Assembly (NCBI RefSeq): GCF_019175365.1
Contig: NZ_CP059572.1
Span: 3,224,001-3,288,000, forward strand
DNA: 64,000 nucleotides
Source of the DNA: Actinomadura graeca
GTDB lineage: Bacteria; Actinomycetota; Actinomycetes; Streptosporangiales; Streptosporangiaceae
Direction: 5' to 3'
Positions 39,714-46,587 of the stretch are shown here, piece by piece. A model generated the notes under the pieces. The model was given only the letters and a program-made list of their open reading frames with translations, was not told where the DNA came from and did no database searches. Positions within the stretch are counted from its first letter, which is position 1. Every line of letters starts with the position of its first letter. A program made the position numbers and the translations under genes.

Positions 39714-41942
39714 TCACTGGCCGAGCATCGACCGGATCCGCACCCAGGCCATCAGCAGCAGCCGCTTCCACTCCGGGTACAGCAGCCGGACGAACACCTC
39801 CTGCCTGACCTCCTTGACCCCGCGGCGCCGCGGCCCCTCGTCCGCCCACCGCCGGACGGCGTCCAGGACGACCATCCGGCGCCGCAGGTCGGCGACCTGC
39901 GGCGCGACCGCCGCCTGCGCGGCCTCCCCGGGCGTCCGCTCGATCATCGCGACGATCCGCTTGCGCATCCGCGGATGCGCGGCCGCCGCGTCCAGCCACA
40001 GCCGGAACGCCGGCTCGAACGCGGGGTGCGCGCCGGGCGACTCCGCCTCCGCGCCCACCGCCACGGCCCACGCCGCCGCGCACTCCATCGGGTCGACGGC
40101 GTCCCGACCCACGAGGATCGCCGGGAACCCCTCCCCCGTAACCTCGACGGTCAGCATGAGGAAGATTTCCGTCCCCACCGCCGCCGTGTGCGGGTTCGGG
40201 CGTCCCGCCCACGCCAGCGCCGCGCGCAGCACGTAGGCCCGGTACCCGCCCGCGGCCAGCCGCCGCGCCGCGTCCAGCAGCAGCGGGCGCATGTGCGGGC
40301 CGCATCCCGCGAGCAGCTCGATCACCTCCAGCACGCTCCGCAGCCGCGTGCCGTCCGGGACGGCCGGGCCGGGGGCCACAGACTCCCCCGGCGGAGCGGC
40401 CAGCGGACGGTCGTGCTCGGCCAGCGCGACCCGCAGCCCCACGCGCGCCCGGTGGAACATGTCCTTCTGGGAGGACAGGTGCGCGGCGGTCCGGCACCAG
40501 GTGAGCGCGGCCTGGAACACCCTCCCGGGGTGGAGCTCGGCGAGCGCCCGCACCACCTCGTACACCTCGTCCTGGACCTGCTCGTCCCCGTAGGTGCCGA
40601 GGTGCTTGAGCCGCGTCAGCGCGATCGACGCGTGCGTCTCCCCGAGCACCTGGCAGACGCGCACCACCGTCAGCTTCAGCGTCTGCGCCGTCCGCCGCTC
40701 GGTGGACCACCCGTAGAGCTGCCGCCGGACGCGCCCGCCGACCCGCTGGTGCAGGCACGTCCTGGCCAGCGCGACGTACGCCAGGTCCGCGGAGTGGTGC
40801 ACCGACGCCCACTCCGCCGCCTTCCGCAAAATCTTCCCCACCGCGTCGTGCTCGGCCGCGAGGTCGGCGAACACCGCGACGAGCTTCTGCCGGAGCCCGT
40901 CCCGCAGCTCCACGACCTCGTCGGTGGGCAGCTCCGACAGCCACGACAGCAGGTCCATGCGCGCGAGCGGGTAGTCGTCCCAGACGTGCTGGAGGACGGA
41001 GTCGGCGTACCCCTGCCGCCGGAACACGACCAGGTCGTCGACCCGGTCCGCGCCGAGCAGCTCGCTCAGCCCGGTGGACGGGCACCAGGAGAGCCCGCCG
41101 CCCTCCACCTTGATCTTGAGCTGGCGCGCCAGGGACATCGCCGCCCCGTACACGCTCGTCTCGTCCGCCGGGGCGATCGTCGCGGCGGCGATCATCAGGG
41201 TCTGGTCGCGCAGGTCGCCGTTGGACACGAACCAGCCGCGCAGATGCTCGTCCCAGCCCCGGTACGCCAGCTCCACCTCGCGCTCGTCGCCGCCCGCCGC
41301 GACGAGGTCGGCGAGGCGGCGCGCGTCGCCGGGCGTCGCGTCCTTCAGCAGCTCGGCGGCGCGCGGCCAGTCCGGCCAGCCGCGCCCGACGCCGCGCCGC
41401 GCGAGCCGCGCCCGGTAGACGGCGTCCGGCGGCGGCGGATGCACCGGCAGGACGCGCAGGAACTCCGAGAACGGCCGCTGCTCCGCCTGCGTCCCCACGA
41501 CGAGCAGGAACCCGCCCGAGGCGTGCACCGCCTCCAGGCACGACCGCAGCCGCGACGGGTCCTCATCACCCGCGCGGACGAGGTACCCGCACGCCCGCGC
41601 GGCGGCGATCTCCTCCACGTCGTCCTCGTCGGTGGAGAACAGCCGGATCGGCAGGTCGGGGCGCAGCCACCGCAGCGCCGCGACGGCCGTCGTCGTGACG
41701 CCCGTCCCGGACGCCCCGGCGAGCGCGACCGCGTGGTGGCGGTCGAGCGCGCCGACGATCTCCTCGTGGTTGAGCGCGGGCACGTACCCGGCGACCCGGT
41801 CGGCGATCTCCCCCTCCGACAGCACCATCGACGGACGGCCCCGGACGAACTGGAGCTGCGTCTGGATGAGGTCGCCCGAGACCGTGTTCCCGATCGCGCT
41901 CTGCCCGTCCCCGGTGACGGTCACATCGTCGAACTCCGTCAT
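39714..41942 (-). CDS. P-loop-like helical-repeat protein with N-terminal GDGQSAIGN signalling-type motif
   Basis: A 742-residue protein not assignable to a named family. Residues 7-25 (VTVTGDGQSAIGNTVSGDL) repeat almost exactly the C-terminal motif of the protein encoded just upstream. Residues 71-90 look like an NTPase start, GASGTGVTTTAVAALRW, but the Walker lysine is Val82; LLVVGTQAEQ follows at a distance suited to a second strand. The remaining 600 residues are helical (LAYVALARTC, ALAELHPGRVFQAALTWC) as in solenoid sensor regions of STAND/NLR-like proteins. ATG overlaps the upstream stop as ATGA and AGGAG lies five bases before. By gene order I infer a receptor/partner for the cyclase-like protein. 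Confidence 0.7.
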   Translation of the reverse strand: MTEFDDVTVTGDGQSAIGNTVSGDLIQTQLQFVRGRPSMVLSEGEIADRVAGYVPALNHEEIVGALDRHHAVALAGASGTGVTTTAVAALRWLRPDLPIRLFSTDEDDVEEIAAARACGYLVRAGDEDPSRLRSCLEAVHASGGFLLVVGTQAEQRPFSEFLRVLPVHPPPPDAVYRARLARRGVGRGWPDWPRAAELLKDATPGDARRLADLVAAGGDEREVELAYRGWDEHLRGWFVSNGDLRDQTLMIAAATIAPADETSVYGAAMSLARQLKIKVEGGGLSWCPSTGLSELLGADRVDDLVVFRRQGYADSVLQHVWDDYPLARMDLLSWLSELPTDEVVELRDGLRQKLVAVFADLAAEHDAVGKILRKAAEWASVHHSADLAYVALARTCLHQRVGGRVRRQLYGWSTERRTAQTLKLTVVRVCQVLGETHASIALTRLKHLGTYGDEQVQDEVYEVVRALAELHPGRVFQAALTWCRTAAHLSSQKDMFHRARVGLRVALAEHDRPLAAPPGESVAPGPAVPDGTRLRSVLEVIELLAGCGPHMRPLLLDAARRLAAGGYRAYVLRAALAWAGRPNPHTAAVGTEIFLMLTVEVTGEGFPAILVGRDAVDPMECAAAWAVAVGAEAESPGAHPAFEPAFRLWLDAAAAHPRMRKRIVAMIERTPGEAAQAAVAPQVADLRRRMVVLDAVRRWADEGPRRRGVKEVRQEVFVRLLYPEWKRLLLMAWVRIRSMLGQ

Positions 41943-42700
41943 CGGCGCTCCTGCCGCAGATCGCCGCCGACGATGTTGCCGATCGCGTTCTGGCCGTCCC
42001 CGCCGATGGTGATCCCGCCGATGGACGGCCTCTCCCCGGGCGGGACGGACGCGCGCGGAGCCTCCGCGTCCCCCGCTTCGTGCTCGGCGGGCTCGGCGAT
42101 ATCGGGCGCCCGCGACGGCTTCGGCACGTACAGGTGGGCGTGCCGGGCGAACTGCTTCACCGCGATGGCCACCTCGGTGAACTGGCTCTCGCGCAGCCCG
42201 GTACGCCCGCCTGCGACGTAGACGCTGAACATCTCCGCCGAGAACAGGAACGCGGCGTAGGTGACCTCCGGGTCGCTGTCGCGCAGCGCGTCCCGCAGCG
42301 GCGGCCCATCGACGAGCCGGTTGACGTCGACGGTCGCGGCGGAGATGCCCGGCGCGTCCGGGCGCTCGTCGTCCACGAGCCCGACGTGCATCGCCACCCG
42401 GAGCCGCAACCGCATCCCCCGCGCCCGCAGCCCCGGCGCGGACGCGGCGAGCTCGTCCTGCAACCGCCGGGGAAAGGGGTCCGCCAGCCGGGGCGCCACC
42501 TCGTGCGGCAGCACCGCGAGGACGCCGTCGCCGGTGCTCTGCACGAACCGGAGGCCCTTCCACGTGTCGCCGAGCCCGCTGTCCTCGAACGCCGCCGCCA
42601 GCACGCGCCGGATCTCCAGGTGCAGACGGGGCAGCTGCACGTCGCTGTGTGCGCTGAACCTCTCGGCGTCGACGACGAGAAGGGCGCGGAAGGCTTCCAT
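41939..42700 (-). CDS. Class III nucleotide-cyclase-like protein with C-terminal GDGQNAIGN motif
   Basis: A 253-residue protein. The core (1-195) follows the class III cyclase plan in the degenerate form common in actinobacteria: first metal Asp in LLVVDAERFS (Asp11), STGDGVLAVLP with the second metal Asp58, RVAMHVGLV, and NRLVDGPPLRDAL holding Arg128. The residue three before GDG, normally the adenine-selecting Lys, is Gln54, and the Asn usually four before the Arg is not in place, so activity and base choice are uncertain. A disordered acidic linker (200-225) leads to TIGGDGQNAIGNIVGGDL (231-248). ATG 42700 is used because GGAGAG precedes it and the fold starts at once. Operon with the P-loop-like gene. 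Confidence 0.7.
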   Translation of the reverse strand: MEAFRALLVVDAERFSAHSDVQLPRLHLEIRRVLAAAFEDSGLGDTWKGLRFVQSTGDGVLAVLPHEVAPRLADPFPRRLQDELAASAPGLRARGMRLRLRVAMHVGLVDDERPDAPGISAATVDVNRLVDGPPLRDALRDSDPEVTYAAFLFSAEMFSVYVAGGRTGLRESQFTEVAIAVKQFARHAHLYVPKPSRAPDIAEPAEHEAGDAEAPRASVPPGERPSIGGITIGGDGQNAIGNIVGGDLRQERR

Positions 42701-42762: not shown

Positions 42763-42778
42763 TGTCTGAAATCAGACA
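42763..42778. promoter_or_regulatory. 16-bp perfect palindrome TGTCTGA-AA-TCAGACA
   Basis: This site overlaps the stop codon of the Crp/Fnr-family gene and lies 63-78 bases upstream of the ATG of the cyclase-like gene. Its 16-bp length and TGT...ACA ends are those of Crp/GlxR-type operators, though the inner bases differ from TGTGA-n6-TCACA. It could instead act as a short terminator hairpin. Confidence 0.5.
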
Positions 42779-43431
42779 GACCCGTGACCCGATTCGGCCA
42801 GCGCCCGCAGCCCGGGCAGGTCCACGATGACGATCCGGCGCCGCTCGGTCATGACCAGCCCCCGCTCCCGCAGCCGCGCCAGCTCGGCGGCGACCACGCT
42901 CCGCGACAGCCCCACCGCCTGCCCGATCTCCGTCTGCCCGAGCCCCACGTCCACCGGCTCACCCTCGGCCACCGCCGCCAGCCGCACCAGCGCCCGCGCG
43001 ACCCTCGGCCCGGCGGGGAGCGCGGCGGTCTCCGCCCGCCACGTCTCCCCTTCCCGGATGCGCCGCATGGCCCGCCGGAGCAGCTCGTCCCGCACCCCGG
43101 CCGACTGCGTCAGGAACCGGAACCGCTCGGCGGTCACGACGCGCGTGACGCACGCGTCCACGGCCACGACCGTCGCCGACCGGTCGTCCCCGCCGAGCAC
43201 CGCCATCTCGCCCAGCAGCTCGCCCGGCCCCCGGACGGCGACGAGCAGCACCTCGCCCTTCGGCAGCGTGAGCGATACCTTGACCCGTCCCGACACCAGC
43301 ACCAGGACATGCGTCGGCGGATCGCCCTGCCGGAGCACGACCTCTCCCGCGCCGAACCGCCGCTCGCTCCCCGCCGAGACCAGCCGCTCCCACATCAGCC
43401 CCGAGACGTCCACACCCTCTGTCTCCCACAC
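42772..43431 (-). CDS. Crp/Fnr-family transcriptional regulator
   Basis: A 219-residue regulator. The cyclic-nucleotide-binding beta-roll is intact: GEVVLRQGDPPTHVLVLVSG and the phosphate-binding cassette GELLGEMAVLGGDDRSATV (about residues 70-88), with the Glu and Arg that hold cNMP. The C-terminal winged helix has QTEIGQAVGLSRSVVAAELA. Start is GTG at 43431 or GTG at 43413; the latter has GGGAG eight bases upstream. It is followed after 71 bases by the cyclase-like/P-loop pair on the same strand, which suggests a small signalling cassette in which it may read the cyclase product. Confidence 0.9.
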   Translation of the reverse strand: MWETEGVDVSGLMWERLVSAGSERRFGAGEVVLRQGDPPTHVLVLVSGRVKVSLTLPKGEVLLVAVRGPGELLGEMAVLGGDDRSATVVAVDACVTRVVTAERFRFLTQSAGVRDELLRRAMRRIREGETWRAETAALPAGPRVARALVRLAAVAEGEPVDVGLGQTEIGQAVGLSRSVVAAELARLRERGLVMTERRRIVIVDLPGLRALAESGHGSV

Positions 43432-43492: not shown

Positions 43493-44629
43493 CTATACGG
43501 CGATCGGCTGGGCGAGGCGTTCGCGGTACTCGGCGACGACGGGCCGCCCGGCCTCCGCCTCGGGCACGGCGTCCAGCACCCTCTTGGCGATCACTCTCAC
43601 GTATCGACAGCTGTGGTCAGAGGGAATGTTCGCCAGAGTGCGCTCGGCGTGGCCGATACCGTCATCGATATCTCCTCCACGTACCAGCGTCACCGCCTCG
43701 TGCAGTGCGACCTGAGCGCGCGCCCTGATTCTGGTGGGCTCGTACGCGGCGGAAGCGGCTGCGTGGGCCTGTGCCGCCTCCTTGACCGGACCTATCGCCG
43801 AGTAGACGAAGCTCTCGGTGTGCAAGAGCCGGTGCTCCGGCCATGTCTGAAGCGAACCTCCGTCCGCGATGACGGCGTCCGGGAGCGTCTCGAAGGTACG
43901 TCGAAGCCGCCCGACCGCGGCTCGCGCATCGTCGGTGGCACCGATCACGGAAAGCACTTGGGCCTTGCAGGCCATGGCCTTCAACGTGCCGGTTGTCGTG
44001 TTGCCGTCGGACAGGCGAATGGCGGCCTCGGCCCGATCGAGCACCAGTCGGAAGGGTCTCCCCTGATAGAGGGTGTCCATAGCCTCATGGCCCTGGACCC
44101 AGACCCGAAGATTGCGATCGTCCGAGACGTCGGCGTAGTGGCGTGCGGAATGCCACCAGTCGCGGGATTCGCGCAGCATGCCCACCTGAGTCGCCGTCAT
44201 GGCCATGATGGAGGCCAGGGTCGCGCCGACACCATAGAACTTGGCGAGTTTCTCGACGTCGTCAGTCCGGTCGATGACCGCTGTCAGAGCGAGAACGTCG
44301 GCGGCGATCTCGGACATGAGCGCCTGCGGCGGGCTGACCAGATAAGAGTGCCCGTATTCCCAGGCGACTTCCTGCCAGTCCTCGGCGGCGTGCTCGTGAC
44401 CGCGTTGGGCGAGTGATGCGTCGAATTCATTTCGGACGACCGAAAGAGCATCGCCTTGAGCGGCCGTTACTGCGCCCAGCGCTACCAGGCTCTCCAACAC
44501 CCTGCGGCGTTCCACGACTGCTGCCGCCTCCTCTTCACCGAGAGGGTCGGCACTCATGCTACCAAACAGGTCCGCTTCGTCCAGCTCGAAAATGCGGGAA
44601 CTGACGGGCGTTCCGGAAAGACCGGGCAT
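43493..44629 (-). CDS. TPR-type regulator paralogue lacking its HTH domains
   Basis: A 378-residue protein that is a partial copy of the gene just upstream. It keeps the first 12 residues (MPGLSGTPVSSR), then joins directly to IFELDEADLFGSMSADPLGE, skipping the 139 codons that hold both XRE helix-turn-helix domains; the rest is the helical TPR-like region (SRDWWHSARHYADVSDDRN, VWVQGHEAMDTLYQGRPFR). The frame is intact and the shared promoter and ribosome site (GAGGT) are kept, so a protein is probably made. It could act as a dominant-negative partner of the full-length regulator. Confidence 0.8.
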   Translation of the reverse strand: MPGLSGTPVSSRIFELDEADLFGSMSADPLGEEEAAAVVERRRVLESLVALGAVTAAQGDALSVVRNEFDASLAQRGHEHAAEDWQEVAWEYGHSYLVSPPQALMSEIAADVLALTAVIDRTDDVEKLAKFYGVGATLASIMAMTATQVGMLRESRDWWHSARHYADVSDDRNLRVWVQGHEAMDTLYQGRPFRLVLDRAEAAIRLSDGNTTTGTLKAMACKAQVLSVIGATDDARAAVGRLRRTFETLPDAVIADGGSLQTWPEHRLLHTESFVYSAIGPVKEAAQAHAAASAAYEPTRIRARAQVALHEAVTLVRGGDIDDGIGHAERTLANIPSDHSCRYVRVIAKRVLDAVPEAEAGRPVVAEYRERLAQPIAV

Positions 44630-44823
44630 GAGAATCGACCTCACGGATAGGGCGCGGTCCTGGCTGGACGATTCCAGCATGACAGCGCATGCCGGGCCGA
44701 GAGAGATGCGACAAGAATGCCACCGAAATGCCACACTCCCTTATGATCAAATAACCGGCGATGGGGTGCCGACCGGGCATTATCCGACGTGAATCAGGCC
44801 GTGAACGCCGCCGCCCGGCCGCC

Positions 44824-46377
44824 CTATACGGCGATCGGCTGGGCGAGGCGTTCGCGGTACTCGGCGACGACGGGCCGCCCGGCCTCCGCCTCGGGCACGG
44901 CGTCCAGCACCCTCTTGGCGATCACCCGGATCCCGCGATGGCGATGGGCGACGGGAAGGCCGGTGAAGGTGCGTTCAGCGTGAGCGATGCCGTCACCGAT
45001 GTCTCCTTGACGCACCATCGTTGTCGCCGCGTGGAGTGAGACCTGGGCCAGCGCTGGAGCCCTGTCCGGCGAGTATGCCGCGAGGGCGGCGGCGTGGGCG
45101 CGTGACGCCTCCTTGGCAGGCCCGAAGGCCGAGTAGACGAAACTCTCGGCGTGCAAGAGCCGGTTCTCCGGGCAGTTCAGGATCGAGCCGCTGTCCGCGG
45201 TGGCGCTGCTCGGCAGCTTCTCAAAGGCGGTCCACGCCTGCCTGAGCGTCGTCTTCGCCTCGTCGACGGCCCCGATCTGGGCGAGGGTCTGGGCCTTGGC
45301 GCCCATCGCCTCCAGCAAACCCGGCGTGGCACGCCCATTGGACAGGCGGATCGCGCTCTCAGCCTGATCGAGCACCATCCGGTAGGGCCGCCCCTGGTAG
45401 AGGGAACTCATGGATTCGTGCCCTTGCACCCACACACGGACATCGCGGTCGTCAGACACGTCGGCATAGCGCCGCGCCGAGCGCCACCAGTGGCGGGACT
45501 CGCCCAAAAGTTCCAGAGCGCTCGTCGTCATCGCCATGAGCGACGCCAGGGTCGCGCCGACGCCATAGAGCCCCCCGAGACGGACGGTGTCGGTCTCCCG
45601 ATCGATGACGTCCATCAGGGCGACGATGTCACCGGCGAGTTCCGGCATGAGGGCTTGGCGCGGCGTGAACAGATAGGAGCGACCGTGCTCGTCAGCGACT
45701 TCTCGCCAGTCGTCGACGGCATTTCCGTGGCCGTGTTGGGCGAGTGATGCGTCGAATGCATTTCGGACGACCGAAAGAGCATCTCTTTGTGCGGCCGTTA
45801 CTGCGCCCAGTGCTACCAGGCTCTCCAGCAACCTGCGACGTTTCACAACTTCTGCCGCCTCCTCTTCACCGAGAGGGTCGGCACTCATGCTACCAAACAG
45901 GTCCGCTTCGTCCAGCTCGAAGATGAGCGCGATGGTGGAGGCCCAGTCGCGAGGATAATTCGCACCTTTTTCCCAATGGCGGATCTGCCGGGCCATGGAG
46001 GTGATGTCGCCGTTCACGATATTGGCGGCCGCGAACAGGCGCCTGGCCATCTCGCGCTTGCTCCACCCCCGGGCCTCCCGCTCCTGCCTGATCCGGGCGC
46101 CGACGCGCACGTTGAGGGGGTTGAGGGCCTTGGGCGGACGCGCGGAGGCGGACGGGTCCAGCAGGGCGGCGAGCTCGTCCAGGCTCATCTTGCAGACCTC
46201 GGCCAACACGGGCCGCAGGTGGGGCTGGGGCTCGGTGTACCCCGCCTCCCAGCGGGAGATGGTGGAGCGCTCGACGCCCAGGAACACGGCGAGGGAGTGC
46301 TGGGTGTGCCCGGCGGCGCGGCGCGCCCGGGCCAGGTGTGGACGGGAACTGACGGGCGTTCCGGAAAGACCGGTCAT
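44824..46377 (-). CDS. XRE-family regulator with TPR-like sensor region
   Basis: A 517-residue actinobacterial-type regulator. The first XRE domain reads HLARARRAAGHTQHSLAVFL and GVERSTISRWEAGYTEPQ; a second, more diverged one reads GARIRQEREARGWSKREMAR to QIRHWEKGANYPRDW. From about residue 165 the protein is a helical solenoid of TPR kind. Such proteins often control morphological or secondary-metabolism loci. ATG 46377 has GAGGT eight bases upstream; longer frames lack a ribosome site. It is the intact member of a tandem pair. Confidence 0.88.
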   Translation of the reverse strand: MTGLSGTPVSSRPHLARARRAAGHTQHSLAVFLGVERSTISRWEAGYTEPQPHLRPVLAEVCKMSLDELAALLDPSASARPPKALNPLNVRVGARIRQEREARGWSKREMARRLFAAANIVNGDITSMARQIRHWEKGANYPRDWASTIALIFELDEADLFGSMSADPLGEEEAAEVVKRRRLLESLVALGAVTAAQRDALSVVRNAFDASLAQHGHGNAVDDWREVADEHGRSYLFTPRQALMPELAGDIVALMDVIDRETDTVRLGGLYGVGATLASLMAMTTSALELLGESRHWWRSARRYADVSDDRDVRVWVQGHESMSSLYQGRPYRMVLDQAESAIRLSNGRATPGLLEAMGAKAQTLAQIGAVDEAKTTLRQAWTAFEKLPSSATADSGSILNCPENRLLHAESFVYSAFGPAKEASRAHAAALAAYSPDRAPALAQVSLHAATTMVRQGDIGDGIAHAERTFTGLPVAHRHRGIRVIAKRVLDAVPEAEAGRPVVAEYRERLAQPIAV

Positions 46378-46587
46378 GAGAATCGACCTCACGGATAGGG
46401 CGCGGTCCTGGCTGGACGATTCCAGCGTGACAGCGCAGGCCGGGGCCCGAGAGAGATGCGACAAGAATGCCACCGAAATGCCACACTCCCATATGATCAA
46501 ATAACCGGCGATGGGGTGCCGACCGGGCATTATCCGACGTGGATCGGGCCGTCAACGCACCCGTAACGCCGACGGCTCGGGCGACGG

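Follow-up and report, generated by a model that had tools for sequence, protein, structure and literature searches.

Matched, co-varying ends of a class III cyclase-like protein and a STAND-like receptor in Actinomadura: a candidate signalling module

Why should a cyclase-like protein end, and the protein encoded next to it begin, with nearly the same 15 residues? The question is raised by a locus of Actinomadura graeca, within a stretch of 64,000 nucleotides (contig NZ_CP059572.1, positions 3,224,001 to 3,288,000; hereafter the window). Three consecutive minus-strand genes there encode a CRP/FNR-type regulator, a 253-residue cyclase-like protein and a 742-residue receptor. As the original prediction had it, the tail of the cyclase-like protein carries GDGQNAIGNIVGGDL and the head of the receptor GDGQSAIGNTVSGDL, identical at 12 of 15 positions, and the two genes overlap as ATGA. 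On balance we find it probable that these genes form a module in which a STAND-like sensor is coupled to a cyclase effector by matched disordered ends, as in amyloid signalling, the CRP protein being the likely reader.

Strength, conservation and co-variation of the matched ends

Local alignment of the last 50 residues of the cyclase-like protein with the first 50 of the receptor gave a score of 74. Shuffled ends (10000 shuffles) scored 21.1 (standard deviation, sd, 4.1), with a maximum of 45, and 35 was the highest end-to-end score among the window's 31 other adjacent coding-like open reading frame (ORF) pairs, for which start positions had been assigned mechanically. When the A. graeca genome (9 Mb, 97% complete) was queried with a 25-residue motif, three candidates being scored, matches at E ≤ 10 were found only at these two sites.

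The receptor was matched in at least 36 of 65 Actinomadura genomes (up to 16 first-look candidates were scored per genome, so that counts are lower bounds). Weak or partial matches (G025, G026, G031, G055, G056) were left out as orthologues, and 31 orthologous pairs were extracted. Both ends carry the motif in all 31, with the consensus GDGxQNAfGNxVxGDL; the copy in L033 is degenerate but alignable. A homologue with the motif in one partner only, which the original prediction had named as one refuting case, does not occur among these pairs. In the AlphaFold2 models of the two proteins, both motifs lie outside the ordered folds. The predicted local distance difference test score (pLDDT) is below 50 in segments 207-219, 221-249 and 251-253 of the cyclase-like tail, motif included, and blocks of residues 1-40 of the receptor, again including the motif, score 47-57. 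In one draft genome the cyclase is encoded in two pieces that lie in different frames (L034, G043:C543); the motif was taken from the C-terminal piece alone, and this gene was excluded from the cyclase alignment and tree, which have 30 rows.

The two ends vary together. Cognate ends were 61.9% identical over 21 aligned columns, against 53.2% (sd 1.1) for permuted partners, and none of 20000 permutations reached the cognate value; with cluster representatives only (n = 16), the figures were 61.6% and 51.6%, again with 0 of 20000. Swapping partners between relatives at 70-85% body identity lowered the agreement in 42 of 51 cases, raised it in one and left it the same in eight. For the seven pairs above 85% body identity it went down in four, up in one and stayed the same in two. 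As a control for ancestry, head columns were simulated without reference to the tail columns on a tree built from both protein bodies (30 pairs). The observed matches numbered 317 and the simulated ones 236 (sd 21), the maximum of 5000 simulations being 310. Co-variation in orthologous pairs, an outcome that the original prediction had proposed to look for, is thus present by permutation and, in the tree simulation, beyond phylogeny. The signal lies mainly in columns 8, 10 and 12, each with p ≤ 0.0002.

In amyloid signalling, as laid out in the available text of PMC7889193, motif-sized, disordered, G/N/Q-rich ends are placed at the effector C-terminus and the receptor N-terminus and come in many unrelated types. 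Head and tail could instead dock by ordinary, non-amyloid strand pairing or through a small folded interface, the remaining pathway being unchanged. Co-variation at a few positions is what any interface would give, and four published amyloid-motif peptides were all left unmatched by the motif profile: of 1000 shuffles, 103 scored as high against the BASS3 peptide, 184 against Methanothrix, 303 against sigma and 466 against RDW70414, so that a likeness to these peptides was rejected. The comparison with named bacterial amyloid signalling (BASS) motifs covered these four peptides only. The disordered, motif-sized, G/N/Q-rich ends, in many types, nevertheless reproduce the amyloid layout of PMC7889193 as far as that source was available, and we regard non-amyloid docking as unlikely, though it deserves real weight. 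The earlier proposal of a BASS/RHIM-like pair therefore holds for the pairing of motifs in all 31 loci, for their co-variation and for their predicted disorder, and is so far unsupported as regards membership of a named BASS or RHIM family.

The two partners and the CRP neighbour

The model of the cyclase-like protein (AlphaFold2, 30 sequences) has a mean pLDDT above 90 in 19 of the 20 ten-residue blocks of residues 1-200, and of 75 in the remaining one. Its top Foldseek matches are the class III cyclases Cya2, Ma1120 and CyaC (E about 1e-6 to 3e-6), with TM-scores by target of 0.56-0.76 against class III cyclases; among the best 50 matches listed, ranks 1-49 are nucleotidyl cyclases and rank 50 is Cmr2. 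A sequence profile of the family also matches Ma1120 (E 0.0056), and the class III cyclase fold first suggested for this partner is borne out by both comparisons. The window protein had no match in Pfam, NCBIfam or PADLOC at E ≤ 1, and the 30 orthologues gave only four unrelated weak matches in Pfam, one member each. A known defence family for the pair was accordingly rejected, since these libraries gave nothing for the window cyclase at this threshold and only weak matches for the receptor. In three paralogues of the cyclase family (L065, L067, L082), a folded-looking C-terminal domain, TIR-like or EAD-like by eye, replaces the short motif.

Residues D11, D58, R128 and K182 are kept in 30 of 30 orthologues. 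Of 97 aligned family members, 96 have one of the two metal-binding aspartates and all 97 the other; the arginine is invariant, and the late lysine occurs in 93. Other positions are not canonical: just 22 of the 97 have the asparagine of N-x3-R, the window protein having V there, and 81 have Q or E in place of the base-specifying lysine (Q in the window protein). The roles given here to the asparagine, to the transition-state arginine and to the base-specifying lysine are the canonical ones, with adenylyl cyclases as the standard for the asparagine and the lysine. The simplest reading of these residues is a protein that would be an active enzyme, with a base choice that cannot be predicted from them. 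Alternatively, the fold could lack activity and act only in nucleotide binding or as a scaffold, to be read by the CRP protein or the receptor, which would be compatible with amyloid and non-amyloid binding alike. The two altered positions favour this, and inactive cyclases are known in vWA systems, according to the available text of PMC7159879. Retention of the aspartates, arginine and late lysine argues against it, as does an adjoining CRP with an apparently intact ligand site; we hold an inactive fold to be improbable, but worth keeping in mind beside the active effector that we prefer.

The receptor model (AlphaFold2 model m924dc33362b3, 31 sequences) combines a low-confidence N-terminus with a P-loop-like domain and an extended helical region; in the orthologue alignment the sequence is variable past about residue 480. 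The nSTAND3 model is matched at E ≤ 0.05 in 16 of 31 orthologues (best 2.6e-4); of 10 partners that are further removed, 4 match it at E ≤ 0.01. The window receptor itself reaches 16.9 bits, below the cut-off of 27.2. The Walker-A lysine is present in none of the 31 orthologues, where the position is V in 16, R in nine, A in three, T in two and N in one; the degenerate P-loop originally proposed is thus confirmed. The Foldseek list for the model contains SAMD9, condensin, HEAT/ARM proteins, Avs4 and Avs5, and since all TM-scores are low, we take these model-based likenesses as resemblance only. No phage record matched the receptor.

A CRP gene adjoins the cyclase gene upstream in 29 of 30 orthologous loci, with a gap of about 46-91 bp; among 69 other cyclase loci it does so in 44. 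Of the 29 CRPs of orthologous loci, 28 have a G[E/D]...RSA stretch that resembles the phosphate-binding cassette in intact form, and this stretch is less regular in other loci. The nucleotide-binding domain of the window CRP matches the PADLOC models PycTIR (7.6e-13) and PycC (9.6e-7).

A link to Pycsar systems is seen at a few loci. PycTM was found at 21 places in 20 of the 65 Actinomadura genomes, three of them under the family cut-off. Two above-cut-off places (L195, L196) lie about 1 kb beyond a CRP - cyclase - receptor array on the same strand, in two different genomes, and a third, weak, below-cut-off and on the opposite strand, is near a cyclase-family gene (L084). The other 18 places had no cyclase-family gene nearby, within at most about 8 kb on each side and less at contig ends, so that PycTM was rejected as a constant member of the module. 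The window genome gave no PycTM match; PycTIR was not searched genome-wide. On a plasmid of Streptomyces sp. NBC_00055 (L154:3649-7630), the order is PycTM - Crp - cyclase - matched-head gene, followed by an IS701 transposase, and the tail and head, read by eye, are TVNFSHHGEHGVQTYNL and SVSFTHAGKHGIQAYNL.

Table 1. Features of the locus, in window coordinates
Feature	Position	Strand	Basis
CRP/FNR-type regulator, cyclic-nucleotide-binding domain and HTH	42772..43431	-	PF00027 6.5e-22, PF13545 3.8e-14; directly upstream of cyclase gene
Cyclase-like putative effector gene, 253 aa	41939..42700	-	ATG at 42700, stop 41939-41941; Foldseek, profile, conserved residues
Ordered cyclase fold, residues 1-200	42101..42700	-	pLDDT
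Disordered C-terminal tail of cyclase-like protein, residues 207-253	41942..42082	-	pLDDT
Tail motif GDGQNAIGNIVGGDL, residues 234-248 of cyclase-like protein	41957..42001	-	Recognisable in 31/31 orthologues
ATGA overlap of cyclase and receptor genes	41939..41942	-	Sequence
STAND-like receptor gene, 742 aa	39714..41942	-	ATG at 41942; nSTAND3 matches, Foldseek list
Head motif GDGQSAIGNTVSGDL, residues 11-25 of receptor, low-confidence N-terminus	41868..41912	-	Recognisable in 31/31 orthologues
Degenerate Walker A GASGTGVTT, receptor residues 76-84	41691..41717	-	Lysine position non-Lys in 31 orthologues
Helical, HEAT-like C-terminal receptor part, residues 204-742	39717..41333	-	AlphaFold2 model, Foldseek HEAT/ARM matches, alignment

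Directly upstream of the CRP gene are two neighbouring regulator ORFs (43493-44734 and 44824-46530, minus strand), whose translations have long near-identical stretches in common. The first of them matches an NsdA-family TPR-like model, under the model's cut-off.

Other motifs and other upstream partners beside related receptors

In divergent loci the gene pair is kept, and the motif is exchanged for another in both partners at once. Among other genera of the family, the cyclase still lies upstream in 15 of 18 receptor loci examined, and at L115, L117 and L118 a wholly different yet matched motif is found in both partners. A class-wide cyclase search, in which up to nine first-look candidates were scored per genome, gave matches at E ≤ 1e-8 in at least 53 of 296 genomes, that of A. 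graeca included. These matches and paralogues added further loci. A broad test of tail against head started from 69 loci; 61 have a downstream coding ORF and 45 of these a tail of 25-110 residues. The cognate score in these 45 loci was 44.7, compared with 26.6 (sd 1.28) for permuted partners, and was reached in 0 of 20000 permutations. After removal of close relatives (36 loci) it was 39.2 against 25.6 (sd 1.16), again with 0 of 20000, residue-shuffled heads giving 23.6, and the cognate head ranked first in 11 of the 36.

In the longest match seen, at L134, the cyclase tail aligns over 37 residues with the beginning of the protein encoded next to it (score 113, z 22.6). Six pairs (L204, L210, L214, L117, L124, L128) have a [VI][VI]QAGxVxGG-like motif, which may resemble BASS1. 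Five plasmid records match the cyclase, four from Streptomyces and one from Embleya, all at less than 60% identity; with these, and no phage record for the receptor, a mobile setting was rejected.

Twenty receptor places were picked from a list of distant homologues, including the three cyclase-less loci of the 18; this distant search scored up to four first-look candidates per genome, and its counts are lower bounds. Eight of the 20 have a cyclase, at three a different protein whose end matches that of the receptor is encoded upstream, and one has an unclassified 154-residue upstream ORF. The three other partners (L208, L212, L216) are TIR proteins above the Pfam cut-off. An HTGxG motif (HAGxG in one head) is present at both ends of the three TIR pairs and of a cyclase pair, L211. 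Receptors of the TIR loci are 32-40% identical to each other, and about 31-34% identical to the L211 receptor over at least 500 residues; with the window receptor they share 25-31% identity in less extended alignments (E at most 4e-12). TIR enzyme and cyclase thus occupy one and the same slot beside related receptors, and this is the strongest sign that the cyclase is the effector. Five receptor homologues (L197, L198, L201, L202, L205) have motif-like heads and no evident adjacent partner.

The two motifs might also be alike through binding a common third partner, and not each other, which would likewise be expected to yield matching sequences in both proteins. However, the motif query found this pair alone in the genome, and the motif type switches jointly in both partners across loci; we judge a third partner very unlikely. 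A functionless likeness, left by gene conversion or by a recently duplicated short coding segment, is hardly credible. The distance between the copies is only about 90 bp, and certain motifs are almost the same, but where amino acids agree the codons are identical in 73% of cognate and 69% of non-cognate comparisons, so that the likeness is one of protein sequence and not of copied DNA, and the motif is retained in 31 of 31 pairs.

Proposed mechanism and relation to known systems

The coupling of sensor and cyclase through their matched ends would work as follows. The STAND-like protein, with its disordered head motif, would be the sensor, and the cyclase-like protein, with its matching disordered tail, the signal-making effector. 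Once triggered, the receptor would oligomerise and its heads would cluster; these would template or dock the tails, so that the cyclases cluster in turn. The active site of class III cyclases lies between the two subunits of a dimer, the working form of these enzymes, and clustering would for this reason be expected to switch them on. The likeliest reader of the nucleotide product would be the CRP-type regulator encoded in this locus. We infer this chain, from the binding of head to tail, presumably in a cross-beta form, through triggering and cyclase activity to the CRP as reader, and with it a likely purpose in defence.

Several results count against this module as proposed, in addition to the two altered cyclase positions and the four unmatched peptides mentioned above. 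The co-variation is concentrated and not general, 10 of the 18 tested columns showing none (p > 0.25). The cognate head is top-ranked, ties allowed, for 13 of the 31 orthologues and in only 14 of the 45 broad loci, and z ≥ 2 is reached in only 17 of the 36 divergent loci, the other half being without a clear match. Against a strict pair rule, 8 of the 20 picked receptor loci have no evident adjacent partner. Searches of five genomes with a 33-residue head peptide returned just the receptors themselves in four (one at E 0.435), while the fifth gave no match. Within these searches the L198 head peptide found no second carrier in the five genomes, and a partner in trans for the orphan heads was rejected on this basis. 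Lastly, 25 of the 69 other cyclase loci showed no adjacent CRP, several of them with little upstream DNA to examine.

A wider reading, somewhat less likely than not, is put forward tentatively. The loci may be a family of plug-in actinobacterial modules, in which short, interchangeable, co-evolving, prion-like tails join non-canonical STAND-like receptors to a class III cyclase or a TIR enzyme; in the cyclase form, aggregation would drive dimerisation and yield a cyclic nucleotide read by the CRP of the operon and, at some loci, by a PycTM-like membrane effector, which would amount to cyclic-nucleotide immunity triggered by amyloid. If true, amyloid-type signalosomes and cyclic-nucleotide immune signalling, so far separate fields, would be joined. 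The many head and tail pairs on one receptor-enzyme frame would be a natural experiment on motif specificity, and cyclase clustering would provide an easily measured small-molecule output for an event that is hard to assay.

BASS1-10 are pairs of Bell, CHAT or TIR effectors with NLRs, as far as the available texts of PMC7889193, PMC8086366 and PMC12261475 describe them. Our loci share with BASS pairs a short motif at the effector C-terminus and at the N-terminus of the next-door receptor, overlapping genes, many motif types, actinobacterial hosts and TIR proteins with related receptors; as in those pairs, the window motifs lie in predicted disordered extensions outside folded domains. They differ in the putative effector, a class III cyclase, and in the receptor, with its degenerate P-loop and HEAT-like helices. 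The word 'cyclase' has 0 occurrences in the available text of these three papers, and the open-access literature searched, outside which Dyrka et al. 2020 and most subscription papers fall, gave no case of a cyclase and a receptor linked through paired short motifs.

Avs-type STAND receptors appear among the Foldseek matches listed for the receptor (Avs4 at rank 4, Avs5 at ranks 15, 16 and 42), with TM-scores of only about 0.1-0.2; unlike them, the receptor has its effector encoded separately and has lost the Walker-A lysine. Pycsar (PycC with PycTM or PycTIR) likewise pairs a class III-type cyclase with a cyclic-nucleotide reader, and PycTM stands beside homologous modules in the Streptomyces plasmid and two Actinomadura genomes. 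However, the window cyclase matches no PycC family in PADLOC at E ≤ 1, and a receptor gene is added here.

STAND-type conflict systems with cNMP cyclases as signal-makers, EADs and CRP-like factors were described by Kaur et al. 2020 (PMC7159879) and 2021 (PMC8195603). In the available text of these papers, the STAND, VMAP and iSTAND systems resemble ours in using cNMP cyclases as signal-making domains, in having homotypic adaptors in adjacent genes and, beside some peptide-processing systems, in CRP-like factors. The adaptors there are folded EADs or Death-like domains, whereas here they would be short disordered motifs. The original prediction did not know the combination of a cyclase with a degenerate P-loop protein as described; since cyclases as signal-makers in related conflict systems are on record (Kaur et al. 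2020, PMC7159879, available text), only the coupling by short tail motifs and the association with CRP at these loci seem to be new.

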